Assembly (NCBI GenBank): GCA_004297825.1
Contig: SCSX01000025.1
Location: 1-56,767 of the forward strand
DNA length: 56,767 nucleotides
Direction: 5' to 3'
Source of the DNA: Spirochaetota bacterium
GTDB taxonomy: Bacteria; Spirochaetota; UBA4802; UBA5368
The translations under genes and the position numbers were made by a program. Shown here piece by piece: positions 21,168-50,617 of the stretch (the first letter of the stretch is position 1; each line of letters starts with the position of its first letter). Under the pieces are notes generated by a model. That model was not told where the DNA came from and did not search any database. It worked only from the letters and a program-made list of their open reading frames with translations.

Positions 21168-21588
21168 GGTCAAATCTCCTTCGCAGAAATTTAATGGTGA
21201 TTCAGGTCATGCGACGCTTCCCTTCCGCAGTTTTTATATGGCACATCTGTCTCCACGCCATGGAGATTATGACACAATTGCCAGATTGTGTAAATTACAT
21301 CAATAACAAATCTGCAATTTAAATCGACCAGGGTGATTATTTACAAGGATGTAAAAAAGAGCTTATCGGGCAAAGGGATAAAAGTTTTTGCTCATGGAAA
21401 ATTGCCAAATGCCGATTTGAGCAATGAGGGGAATTATGCAAAAAATGTCGAAATGGGTCTAAACTGGTTAAAATAGAGCCATATTATTATATATACGGAT
21501 ATATTCCAGAATATCAGCCTAAAATCGCCTTCAATTCCGTCTCATCTCTCACCGACTAATAATCTGTAAGGGAAAAATCCCAAGCACG
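21168..21588. other. Divergent promoter region between chemoreceptor and flaB
   Basis: No gene is supported in these 421 bp. The region must contain the chemoreceptor promoter and the flagellin promoter. A flagellar-sigma-like site at 21460-21485 is listed separately. The A+T-rich run 21480-21510 follows it and is the likely start region of the flaB transcript. Confidence 0.6.
21460..21485 (+). promoter_or_regulatory. Possible sigma-28 (FliA-type) promoter for flaB
   Basis: TAAA at 21460-21463 is followed 14 nt later by GCCATATT (21478-21485). The FliA/SigD consensus is TAAA, 14-16 nt, then GCCGATAT or GCCGATAA, so the match is good in the -35 and GCC parts. It would give a leader of roughly 145 nt. 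A GCCATATC also lies 149 nt before the flaB at 40181. Confidence 0.45.
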
Positions 21589-21637
21589 GTGGCACGGAGG
21601 TCGCCGGAGTCGCAGTCTTGATTCATGGAGGAATCAA
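21589..21637 (+). promoter_or_regulatory. Paired ANGGAN hairpins in the first flaB leader (CsrA-type sites)
   Basis: Site 1: GTGGC / GTCGC (with two G-T pairs) closes the hexaloop ACGGAG at 21594-21599. Site 2: TTGATTC (21618-21624) pairs perfectly with GAATCAA (21631-21637) around ATGGAG (21625-21630), which is the Shine-Dalgarno sequence of the gene. High-affinity CsrA/RsmE sites are ANGGAN hexaloops on short stems, closed by C-G; both loops fit. Binding at site 2 would block ribosome access. CsrA itself is not in this window, so this is inferred from structure. Confidence 0.65.
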
Positions 21638-22525: not shown

Positions 22526-22645
22526 AAGGTTCTTTGAAAACTGATGGGAGCGGCTGTAAGCATCGTGTTCCGATGTTCGGGACAGGATGGTTGCAGCGGC
22601 AACTGGTATTCCCAGAAAACATAGACGGTGCAACCTGGTATCAAT

Positions 22646-22687
22646 GCCTGATAGGGAGATTAGGCATAACACAAAACAAAGGAGTGT
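22646..22687 (+). promoter_or_regulatory. Paired ANGGAN hairpins in the second flaB leader (CsrA-type sites)
   Basis: Site 1: GCCTGAT (22646-22652) pairs along its full length (one G-T) with ATTAGGC (22659-22665) around the hexaloop AGGGAG. Site 2: ACA (22676-22678) pairs TGT (22685-22687) around AAGGAG (22679-22684), the Shine-Dalgarno sequence. The second stem is short. The order and spacing (26 nt between loops) match the leaders of the other two flaB genes. Confidence 0.62.
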
Positions 22688-22692
22688 AGTTT

Positions 22693-26445: not shown

Positions 26446-26886
26446 TTATAACGCGCGAGCCAATTCCAGCTTTTCTATGCGTGCAAATTCCCGTTCGATG
26501 CGCCTCCGCAGGAGCGGCTCGATAAGGAAGGAGATGATCATTGCGAAACCGAACCTGAAGCGTATGGTGACTGATACGGAAATATCGGTCCCCCCCTGAG
26601 AATCCGAGAGCTCGTAAATGCACAGGTACTCGCGGAATTCCCCCTTGACCTGCTTCAACTCGCAATATTTTTCCAGCCTGGTTGCGCAGGATAGACGCGC
26701 CCTGAATGAAAGAAAAAGCGGCAAGCCTATGGTCGCGTCCGCGATCTGGAGACCTGATTCGCTGCGTACGAGGGAAAGCTCCCTGATGTCTTTTTTCAGC
26801 GCTCTAAGCTTGACGATATCGTCAAGCCTGCTGAATATTCCCGCCAACGGAAACGGCAGGGTTCGCTGAATTTCAATTTTTATCAT
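26446..26886 (-). CDS. SRPBCC-like protein upstream of the XPB helicase
   Basis: A protein of 146 residues. It begins MIKIEIQRTLPFPLAGIFSR, a typical first strand and helix of the SRPBCC fold, and ends in a long basic helix (LRRRIEREFARIEKLELARAL). The middle strands are consistent with the fold (GGTDISVSVTIRFRFG). The ligand is unknown. It ends 2 bp before the XPB start, so it is almost certainly in the same operon. Whether this link is functional or only positional cannot be told. There is no signal peptide. Confidence 0.7.
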   Translation of the reverse strand: MIKIEIQRTLPFPLAGIFSRLDDIVKLRALKKDIRELSLVRSESGLQIADATIGLPLFLSFRARLSCATRLEKYCELKQVKGEFREYLCIYELSDSQGGTDISVSVTIRFRFGFAMIISFLIEPLLRRRIEREFARIEKLELARAL

Positions 26887-39845: not shown

Positions 39846-40140
39846 GGGATTGATAATCCTGAGAAAATAAAAATGAAATTGGCGATACCTTGTGCGCTCA
39901 CAGGGGATGAACCGAAAAACCTGTTGAACCACGCCAATACAGTCAGTTATCAGCGCAAAATACAACAAAAAGAATCGCAGGGACAAAATTTTTATAAAAT
40001 GGCGAAATTAATAGTTAATGGGGCCTGGGGAGCCATATCGTAATATAAATGCTATAAATCAACCACAATAGCCTTAAATCGTTATTAACTAGAATCGAAA
40101 ATTGGACGACCAAGAGAGTGATAATTCCGCTCTCATTCCG
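39846..40140. other. Divergent promoter region between PBP1A and the third flaB
   Basis: A+T-rich DNA with no supported gene. GCCATATC at 40032-40039 resembles the -10 part of a flagellar-sigma promoter, and matches GCCATATT in front of the first flaB, but no good TAAA lies at the right distance. The PBP1A promoter should be near 39850-39950; I could not place it. Confidence 0.5.
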
Positions 40141-40178
40141 GCTATCAAGGACGATAGCTTGAAATTTCAAGGAGGAAA
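40141..40178 (+). promoter_or_regulatory. Paired ANGGAN hairpins in the third flaB leader (CsrA-type sites)
   Basis: Site 1: GCTATC (40141-40146) pairs perfectly with GATAGC (40153-40158) around AAGGAC. Site 2: TTTC (40165-40168) pairs GAAA (40175-40178) around AAGGAG (40169-40174), the Shine-Dalgarno sequence, 6 nt before the ATG. Both are hexaloops of type ANGGAN closed by C-G. An overlapping palindrome, CTTGAAATTTCAAG (40157-40170), could form an alternative hairpin that frees or hides site 2. Confidence 0.68.
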
Positions 40179-40180
40179 AC

Positions 40181-41029
40181 ATGATTATTAACCACAACGC
40201 CAGCGCTATATTCGCTCACAGGACGTTGAAGTTTCATGACTGGAGCATGACGAAGGATATAGAAAAGCTGTCCTCGGGCATGAGAATCAACCGCGCGGGG
40301 GATGACGCTTCAGGCCTGGCCGTTTCCGAAAAGATGCGCTCACAGATACAGGGCTTACGACAGGCGGAGCGCAACACCGAGGACGGCATGTCCATGATCC
40401 AGACCGCTGAAGGTTACCTGCAGGAAGTGCACGACATTCTTCAGCGCATACGGGTACTCGCCGTCCAGTCGGCAAACGGCATTTACACCCCCGAAGACCG
40501 CCAGCAGATCCAGGTTGAAATTTCGGAGCTTGTGGACGAGGTCGACCGCATCGCGTCGCAGGCCGAGTACAACAAGATGAAGCTCCTGACCGGGGCTTTT
40601 GCGAGGCTCCACCCCACGGCGTCCATGTGGTTTCACATGGGTCCCAATATGCACCAGCGCGAACGGGTTTTCGTGGAGACCATGACCACCGCGGCGCTTG
40701 GACTGCGCAATCCCACGGTGCTCACCTTCATTTCGATTTCCACTCCCGGGAAAGCGAATGCGGTGATCGGGATCGCGGACGAGGCGCTCAGGAGCATCTC
40801 GAAGCAACGCGCGGACCTTGGCGCCTATTTCAACCGGCTGGATCACGCGGCGAAGGGCCTCATGAACGCGTACGAAAACGTGCAGGCGTCGGAAAGCCGC
40901 ATTCGCGACACCGACATGGCCGAGCAGATGTCCTCCTTCGTGAGATACCAGATTCTCACCCAGGCGGCCACGGCAATGCTCGCGCAGGCCAATACGAAGT
41001 CGCAGTCCGTACTTCAGCTCCTCAAATAA
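40181..41029 (+). CDS. flaB: Flagellar filament core protein FlaB (third copy)
   Basis: A flagellin of 282 residues, about 17 kb from the tandem pair. It has [20 protein letters not shown] at the start, [36 protein letters not shown] in the short middle domain and [20 protein letters not shown] near the end. The middle segment ([20 protein letters not shown]) differs most from the other copies, so this paralogue may serve a different part of the filament. It has its own leader and terminator and is a single-gene transcript, divergent from PBP1A. GGAGG at 40171-40175 is the ribosome site. Confidence 0.97.
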
Positions 41030-48742: not shown

Positions 48743-50617
48743 TCAGCGATCCCTGCTTTTCATCACTTTCGAAATTTCCCGAATGAGATCATCCAGTTTA
48801 AACGGCTTCGCAAGGAACAAGTCTACCACGTTTTTGTAGGCCTTGAGATCGGTCAGCATCCACCCCGAAAGCAGTACCGTGGTCACCTTCTCGTCTATCT
48901 CCTTGACGCGCGCGGCAAGCTCGATGCCGCTTATGCCCGGTATCCCGTAATCCGTAACAACCAGGTGAAAGGTGCCCTTGCGGAAGACCTCGAGCGCTTC
49001 CTCCCCGGATTCGCACAGGACCACCCGGTTGCCCATCGAATCGAAGAGCTCCTCGAGAATGTCCCTGAGGGCCTTTTCGTCCTCTACCACGAGTATGTCC
49101 AGGTCGCGCAGTTTGAACGATTCCTGTTCGGGCTCCCTGGGTCCCTTTCCGATGAGAAGCGAGGGGGGCAGGGCGGCCTTGATGCTGTAGGAGGTATTCG
49201 ATTCCTCCTCGATGATCTTGATATTGAGTTTCTCGGCGATACGCCTTATGTCGACGTCGGCGAACGGCGCCATGGGCGCCTGTTCCGGCGCTTCCTGGTC
49301 GCGCCGCTCCTTTTCCACCAGCGCTATGATCGAGGGCGAACCGTTGTCTTTTAGAATTATATTTATGGTTCCCTCGGTGCGGATGAACGAGGAAACGCGG
49401 AAAATCATGGTTACGAGGATTTCCTTGAGCAGCCTTGTGTCCGTACGGATGTTGTAAAGACAGAAGTACCGCCGTTCGATCCGTATCTTCCTGCGCTTTT
49501 CCTGCTCTTCAACCTTGAAATGAATCTTCGCGAATTCCAGGGAATCCTCGATGACGTCGATAACGTCTTCAACCTGCTGTTCATCGAGCTTCTCTCCCCC
49601 CATAAAATCCTGGATGCGCCGGATTTGCTTTACGCTGTCGATAGAGGCATTCTCGATCACCTTGAGTCCATCGAGTACTGCGTCCTTTTCCGTGATCTGG
49701 AGCAGAAGCTGGGTTTTCGTAAGCACAACGTTTATCATGTTGTTGAAGGAGTGGAGAAGGCCCTTCATGAGATCGCCTACTATCTGGATATGGCTGAGCG
49801 CGCTCAGCCGCTCCTCCATTTCCCGGAACCGGGAGATATCCTCGAGGATCATGTCGACGACCTGGATTTCCTTGTTAAGCACCACGGGAAAAATGACGGC
49901 GTTCACCCAGCGGGGGGCGTGGTCCTGGGGAATGACCTTGATCTCGCCCAGCCGTTTGAAGGGGATGATGCCGTTAAAGATATCCGCCACGGCCTTGCGG
50001 ATTCGCTCGAAATCGTACAGCGATACCGCCTTGAACAGCACGTTTCGGTGGTCCTGGAGATCGCCCAGGCCAAGTCCAAAGAAGCCCTCGAATGAAACGC
50101 TCGCGTTCACAATGCTTCCCTGGCGGTCGAAGCGGATAATGGGGAAGGGGGCGTACTCGAAAAAATGCATGCCGGTCGCCGCATCCTCATGTTCCAGGAG
50201 CATTGCCGTATTGTGATCGAAAGACTGAAGCCTGTCGTCGTTCTGGGGCTTGATGAATACCAGGATCGACGATACGGAGCCGTCCTGGAACATGGGAAAC
50301 AGGTAAATCTCCATGGGGATCTTTTTCCCATCGGAGCCCTTCATGATGGCGAATACCTGGCGCTCGACGCCCTTGAGCGCGCGCATGTATGCCATCGCTA
50401 TTCGTTTTCGATACTCCGCCGAGAAGGGGTGGGTGAAGTCCAGGGTGATGATCTGGCCCGATTTTTCGAAAAGGTCGGTGAATGGCTTATTGGTAAAGAG
50501 CATTTCCCCGGAGAGGCCTATGATGCACGCCGGATGGCTGAGTGCATCGAGCAACCGGTATGATGTGACAACGGGAGAGCCCTGCTCTCCCGTTGTGTGA
50601 TGGCTATTTTGATCCAT
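48743..50617 (-). CDS. PAS-containing hybrid histidine-kinase-like protein with degenerate ATPase and a REC domain
   Basis: A cytosolic protein of 624 residues. Two PAS domains (about 25-140 and 150-275) precede a phosphoacceptor-like helix, DLMKGLLHSFNNMINVVLTK, of the NtrB type. The ATPase region is degenerate: where the N box should be is LLKEILVTMIFRVSSFI, and no G1 or G2 glycine motif is present. The C-terminal receiver domain is complete (ILVVEDEKALR, VTDYGIPGISG, LFLAKPFK). Without ATP binding it probably does not autophosphorylate, so it may be a phosphate sink or accept phosphate from another kinase. It stands alone on the minus strand; no partner regulator is adjacent. Confidence 0.87.
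   Translation of the reverse strand: MDQNSHHTTGEQGSPVVTSYRLLDALSHPACIIGLSGEMLFTNKPFTDLFEKSGQIITLDFTHPFSAEYRKRIAMAYMRALKGVERQVFAIMKGSDGKKIPMEIYLFPMFQDGSVSSILVFIKPQNDDRLQSFDHNTAMLLEHEDAATGMHFFEYAPFPIIRFDRQGSIVNASVSFEGFFGLGLGDLQDHRNVLFKAVSLYDFERIRKAVADIFNGIIPFKRLGEIKVIPQDHAPRWVNAVIFPVVLNKEIQVVDMILEDISRFREMEERLSALSHIQIVGDLMKGLLHSFNNMINVVLTKTQLLLQITEKDAVLDGLKVIENASIDSVKQIRRIQDFMGGEKLDEQQVEDVIDVIEDSLEFAKIHFKVEEQEKRRKIRIERRYFCLYNIRTDTRLLKEILVTMIFRVSSFIRTEGTINIILKDNGSPSIIALVEKERRDQEAPEQAPMAPFADVDIRRIAEKLNIKIIEEESNTSYSIKAALPPSLLIGKGPREPEQESFKLRDLDILVVEDEKALRDILEELFDSMGNRVVLCESGEEALEVFRKGTFHLVVTDYGIPGISGIELAARVKEIDEKVTTVLLSGWMLTDLKAYKNVVDLFLAKPFKLDDLIREISKVMKSRDR

Follow-up and report, generated by a model that had tools for sequence, protein, structure and literature searches.

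Two-hairpin leaders of predicted CsrA type upstream of flaB3 and other spirochaetal flagellin genes

The leader of the flagellin gene flaB3 in a Spirochaetota bacterium is, judging from comparative sequence analysis, very probably a CsrA-responsive translational operator of the FliW-CsrA repression type. It was studied in a window of 56,767 nt, by which we mean the whole stretch of DNA analysed (assembly GCA_004297825.1, contig SCSX01000025.1, forward strand), and it holds two predicted hairpins, the second of which carries the Shine-Dalgarno (SD) sequence in its hexaloop. A CsrA-type leader of this kind had been proposed in an earlier note on this DNA, and covariation, order-wide conservation and the presence of a fliW-csrA pair all argue for it. 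The same note held that the layout is repeated in other flaB genes, and we find it in the leaders of flaB1 and flaB2. The features are given below.

21584..21636, + strand, flaB1 leader with the same layout, GGTGGC-ACGGAG-GTCGCC and GATTC-ATGGAG-GAATC
22641..22692, + strand, flaB2 leader with the same layout, ATGCCTGAT-AGGGAG-ATTAGGCAT and ACA-AAGGAG-TGT
40085..40089, + strand, putative weak -35-like element, TTAAC
40105..40112, + strand, sigma28-like -10 element, GACGACCA (putative promoter function; relatives share the consensus G[A/T/C]CGA)
40141..40158, + strand, hairpin H1, GCTATC-AAGGAC-GATAGC, predicted stable upstream CsrA-type site with a CANGGANG hexaloop
40158..40171, + strand, palindrome CTTGAAATTTCAAG, best seen as incidental and outside the element
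40159..40164, + strand, linker between H1 and H2, of varying sequence and length among orthologues
40165..40178, + strand, hairpin H2, TTTC-AAGGAG-GAAA, SD within the loop, predicted second CsrA-type site
40181..41029, + strand, flaB3, flagellin of 282 aa (Pfam Flagellin_N 3.7e-44, Flagellin_C 4.6e-25), proposed regulated gene

Architecture of the flaB3 leader

The arms of H1 (40141-40146 and 40153-40158) enclose the loop AAGGAC (40147-40152), and those of H2 (40165-40168 and 40175-40178) enclose the loop AAGGAG (40169-40174). The loops lie 22 nt apart, a distance of 21-24 nt among orthologues, and the flaB3 ATG is found at 40181; both hairpins and their spacing agree letter by letter with the earlier description. 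The 6-bp stem of H1 was predicted at -7.4 kcal/mol and, whatever the context folded, with P about 0.998. H2 gave -0.5 kcal/mol when folded alone and P about 0.42 within the leader context, and over the orthologues it was predicted weakly (median P 0.08), hence the SD site may be bound by CsrA in a nearly single-stranded state. An Rfam scan of the window gave no match at the gathering threshold.

A further hairpin of 7 bp, GAGAGTG-ATAATTC-CGCTCTC, is found at 40113-40133 of the window, between the predicted promoter and H1. It is strong here, and we considered it as a conserved third element, but rejected it as stems of at least 5 bp were found in 66% of the orthologues versus 47% of the shuffles.

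Upstream of the hairpins the sequence [GA][ACT]CGA[ACT] was found at -90..-55 in 32 of 39 flaB3 leaders (13% expected from mononucleotide shuffles), with most matches positioned at -74..-79. Relative to GACGA in the aligned leaders there is a T at -20 in 94% and an A at -18 in 69%. Lying at about -75, the G[A/T/C]CGA motif resembles a sigma28 -10 element (GCCGATAA). As this conserved sigma28-like element lies about 35 nt 5' of H1, transcription may begin near 40118 and thus ahead of H1, and the sequence gives no indication of a start downstream of 40141. Relatives from a neighbouring genus (L018-L020, L022 and L024) keep the hairpins and have a different upstream region.

Conservation and covariation of the hairpins

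H1 was found in nearly all flaB3 orthologues examined, and we aligned H1 and H2 over 36 distinct orthologous flaB3 leaders. The closing C-G pair of H1 and the A, G, G and A of its loop are invariant in these, and the stem occurs as GCTATC/GATAGC, GCAATC/GATTGC, GTCATC/GATGAC and GTTGTC/GACGAC. The pairs were formed in 88% of the cells, with a covariation score of 0.284 versus at most 0.133 in slid controls. Compensatory changes were seen at 7 of the 12 pairs counted and at 4 of the 6 core pairs of H1, and RNAalifold recovered H1 unaided from the alignment.

The inner pairs of H2 are invariant inside flaB3 and thus uninformative on its pairing there. Across the flaB paralogues the H2 stem reads TTC/GAA versus ACA/TGT, with the longer variants GTTTC/GAAAC and GATTC/GAATC, and compensatory change is seen at each of the five pairs. 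The covariation score across paralogues was 0.717 with slid controls at or below 0.288, and none of 500 shuffles scored as high. In both hairpins A, G, G and A of the loop are fixed, and variation falls on the stems and on the second letter of the loop.

To judge chance occurrence, an H1-type hairpin was defined as an ANGGAN hexaloop on a stem of at least 4, and the strict count of both hairpins required stems of at least 4 for H1 and at least 3 for H2. H1-type hairpins were present in 62 of 94 non-redundant flagellin leaders versus 0.5% of dinucleotide-shuffled leaders, and both hairpins in 54 of the 94; among 340 other ORFs, each at least 150 aa long, no leader had both. The H1 type occurred in 5 of these 340, and three of the five are flagellin genes whose mechanical start is wrong. 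The whole window holds nine ANGGAN hairpins with a stem of at least 5 on both strands, and four of these lie within the three flaB leaders.

The mechanical start of flaB1 is misplaced: the ORF begins at an ATG inside the SD hairpin loop (GATTC-ATGGAG-GAATC-ATG, window 21625-21637), and by alignment with the paralogues we place the true start at 21637.

A covariance model built from flaB3 leaders, R1, scored 63 bits at the flaB3 locus; elsewhere in the genome it gave no convincing site, with weak matches at chance level at C36 and C68. It matched 45 of the 46 genomes of the order, the single miss (G030) being a 71% complete genome without a close FlaB3 match. Over the phylum it matched 137 of 392 sampled genomes (E <= 0.01), with weaker scores beyond the order, and 12 of the 13 stretches inspected from there have a two-hairpin leader immediately 5' of a flagellin start. 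In the thirteenth (L168, G085:C1:128500-130000) a two-hairpin ANGGA leader precedes an ORF that we identified by eye as FlgL-like, which suggests that CsrA targets in some spirochaetes extend beyond the flagellins.

Several other observations were made among the relatives. At locus L169 (G059:C122), one of these twelve stretches, a second two-hairpin leader lies at about position 1093, 5' of an ORF of 183 aa and directly downstream of a flagellin gene. Flagellins of the flaB5 type, which start with MRI[NS]HN (L013:3653-4495, L103, L111 and L115), lack both hairpins while their neighbours have them, and this type is possibly outside CsrA control. Extra copies of the flaB3 leader were found in G017:C27, G029:C34, G032:C1 and C5, and G196:C50; those in G017, G029 and G032 lie close to the end of a contig, which truncates the gene, and this suggests that a duplicated flaB3 breaks the assemblies. 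A relative of the same genus (CALMJO010000327, 'uncultured Spirochaetes bacterium') has a FlaB that is 99% identical.

Putative regulation by CsrA and FliW

The genome has a single csrA and a single fliW, with csrA directly after fliW and both behind flgN-flgK-flgL, a gene order reported for Leptospira and Treponema denticola too (PMC8668096, PMC9481697). Of the 46 genomes of the order, 42 have both genes and four have neither. CsrA is 102 aa long and keeps L4, R44 and N55, i.e. RNA-contact and FliW-contact residues; at asparagine 55 an N55D change has been studied in B. subtilis (PMC6529632). A search of the genome for a CsrB-type sRNA found none. Several features of a CsrA-FliW flagellin leader are seen together here: two ANGGA sites of which one is on the SD, loops with compensatory support, and csrA and fliW present with the contact residues kept.

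In the mechanism we propose, H1 would be a stable preformed hairpin whose ANGGAN hexaloop serves as the anchor for CsrA, and H2, whose ANGGAG hexaloop holds the SD and whose stem is short and weak, could be captured by the protein. A single CsrA dimer would span both sites, which lie 22 nt from each other, and keep the ribosome from binding. FliW would remove CsrA during flagellin export, being free to take it because exported flagellin would no longer occupy FliW, and flagellin synthesis would thereby be coupled to filament assembly. We infer from homologous systems that CsrA binds here, that its dimer bridges the sites, that translation is repressed and that FliW acts as the antagonist. The stable H1 and the weak H2 fit an anchor plus a capture site. 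Among CsrA/RsmE motifs, an ANGGAX hexaloop placed immediately on a stem has the highest affinity (PMC4005645), and a high-affinity upstream site can pass the dimer on to a weaker site at the ribosome-binding site (PMC4005645, PMC7652899). The spacing in flaB3 falls inside the published bridging limits of 10-63 nt, for which the optimum is about 18 (PMC7652899).

The closest parallel is C. jejuni flaA, where the GGA spacing of SL1 and SL2 is 21 nt, both loops are bound by CsrA as footprinted, and FliW is the antagonist (PMC4894983). In both leaders two adjacent ANGGA hexaloop hairpins lie about 21-22 nt apart, the second at the ribosome-binding site; relatives show compensatory changes, the genome carries fliW, and no CsrB-type sRNA is found. 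The present leader differs in that it comes from another phylum, is unrelated in primary sequence and has a weaker H2, and in that there are several flaB paralogues, each with its own version of the layout.

In Borrelia burgdorferi, also a spirochaete though of a distant family, CsrA is described to repress translation initiation of the flagellin gene flaB (Sze et al. 2011, as cited in PMC9481697, PMC3757020 and PMC4066749), and flaB is listed as a CsrA target that has several sites around the SD (PMC4066749); the likeness is by description. For L. biflexa flaB3 and L. interrogans flaB4, EMSA is reported to show CsrA binding at a GGA hexaloop that precedes the start codon (PMC8668096), so Leptospira resembles our case in this hexaloop as well as in the flgN-flgK-flgL-fliW-csrA order; the passages of PMC8668096 consulted describe the SD-proximal site and not an upstream hairpin. 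According to the same paper, csrA overexpression in L. interrogans raised the flaB1, flaB2 and flaB4 transcripts, hence the sign of CsrA regulation can differ. The B. subtilis hag leader has, as outlined in PMC7652899 and PMC6529632, two CsrA sites with one on the SD, and FliW antagonism; it differs in belonging to a Firmicute with a single main flagellin, and again the likeness is by description.

We regard it as rather unlikely that titration is the main output, i.e. that H1 and H2 bind CsrA and the flaB leader, being abundant, soaks it up and so releases its other targets. H1 does belong to the highest-affinity motif class (PMC4005645), there are several flaB leaders per genome with two sites each, the C. 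jejuni flaA mRNA sponge is an established precedent (PMC4894983), and the FlgL-like and 183-aa ORFs of relatives are possible further targets. However, the SD stays in the loop even in leaders with a weak H2, a sign of local repression. The titration reading and the CsrA-operator explanation are compatible, not exclusive.

A conserved RNA structure working without CsrA, e.g. an mRNA stabiliser or a thermosensor, is very improbable: the stems are conserved and H2 is weak enough to melt, but this leaves unexplained why A, G, G and A are invariant in both loops while the stems vary, and the SD is in a loop and not sequestered in a stem as in usual thermosensors.

The palindrome and the wider role of the leaders

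The palindrome at 40158-40171 is exact, as the earlier note had it, and its 5-bp hairpin folds alone at -3.8 kcal/mol versus -0.5 for H2 alone. The note had held that the palindrome and the hairpins cannot coexist, and had raised the possibility of a bistable leader, in which the palindrome hairpin rivals both H1 and H2 and toggles access to the SD between an open and a closed state. The exclusion holds for H2, the only hairpin with which the palindrome competes, but not for H1, with which it shares the single base C40158. Either the full H1 forms together with four palindrome pairs, or five inner H1 pairs together with the whole palindrome hairpin, at similar energies of -8.2 and -7.9 kcal/mol respectively. 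The palindrome helix reached P 0.56 in the shortest fragment folded (40141-40181) but 0.16-0.18 in longer leaders, where it displaces only the weak H2, and the P of H1 stays at about 0.998 throughout.

A bistable switch calls for exclusive structures of similar stability and for an alternative pairing kept in relatives; here H1 persists beside the palindrome hairpin, and the pairing is not kept. The palindrome is present in 1 of 38 flaB3 leaders and missing in the 37 relatives, sister species included, with CTGAACTTTCAAG in its place in the sister of the same genus. Its helix shows no compensatory change in the flaB3 leaders and is formed by 47.8% of the cells, not above slid controls. A switch is thus scarcely credible, and the palindrome is best seen as incidental to this one genome, without a role in the leader. 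A palindrome of this size is also little above what chance would give, as the window holds 10 perfect palindromes of at least 14 nt versus 3.7 expected; the longest, GCTTGACGATATCGTCAAGC and GGCTGAGCGCGCTCAGCC at 26808-26827 and 49792-49809, are possible operator sites. A tempting but wrong palindromic switch is thereby dropped from the picture of the flaB3 leader.

The CsrA-FliW flagellin leader is a known kind of element, and of interest here is how widely it is spread over the order and over the paralogues. The flagella of spirochaetes contain several flagellins, and part of their control acts after transcription. Both hairpins, with covariation, are kept in nearly every member of the order, which predicts a single conserved point at which many genes are controlled; the covariance model of the leader is a search model ready for use. 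Further, we tentatively raise the idea, for this order and scattered over the phylum, that several flagellin paralogues each have a private covarying two-hairpin leader, through which one FliW-CsrA system might set the FlaB ratio and the leaders might jointly titrate CsrA; stems and strengths differ between the leaders, and one class lacks the layout. If true, a single FliW-CsrA system would determine in what proportions the FlaB paralogues enter the periplasmic filament, which is heteropolymeric.
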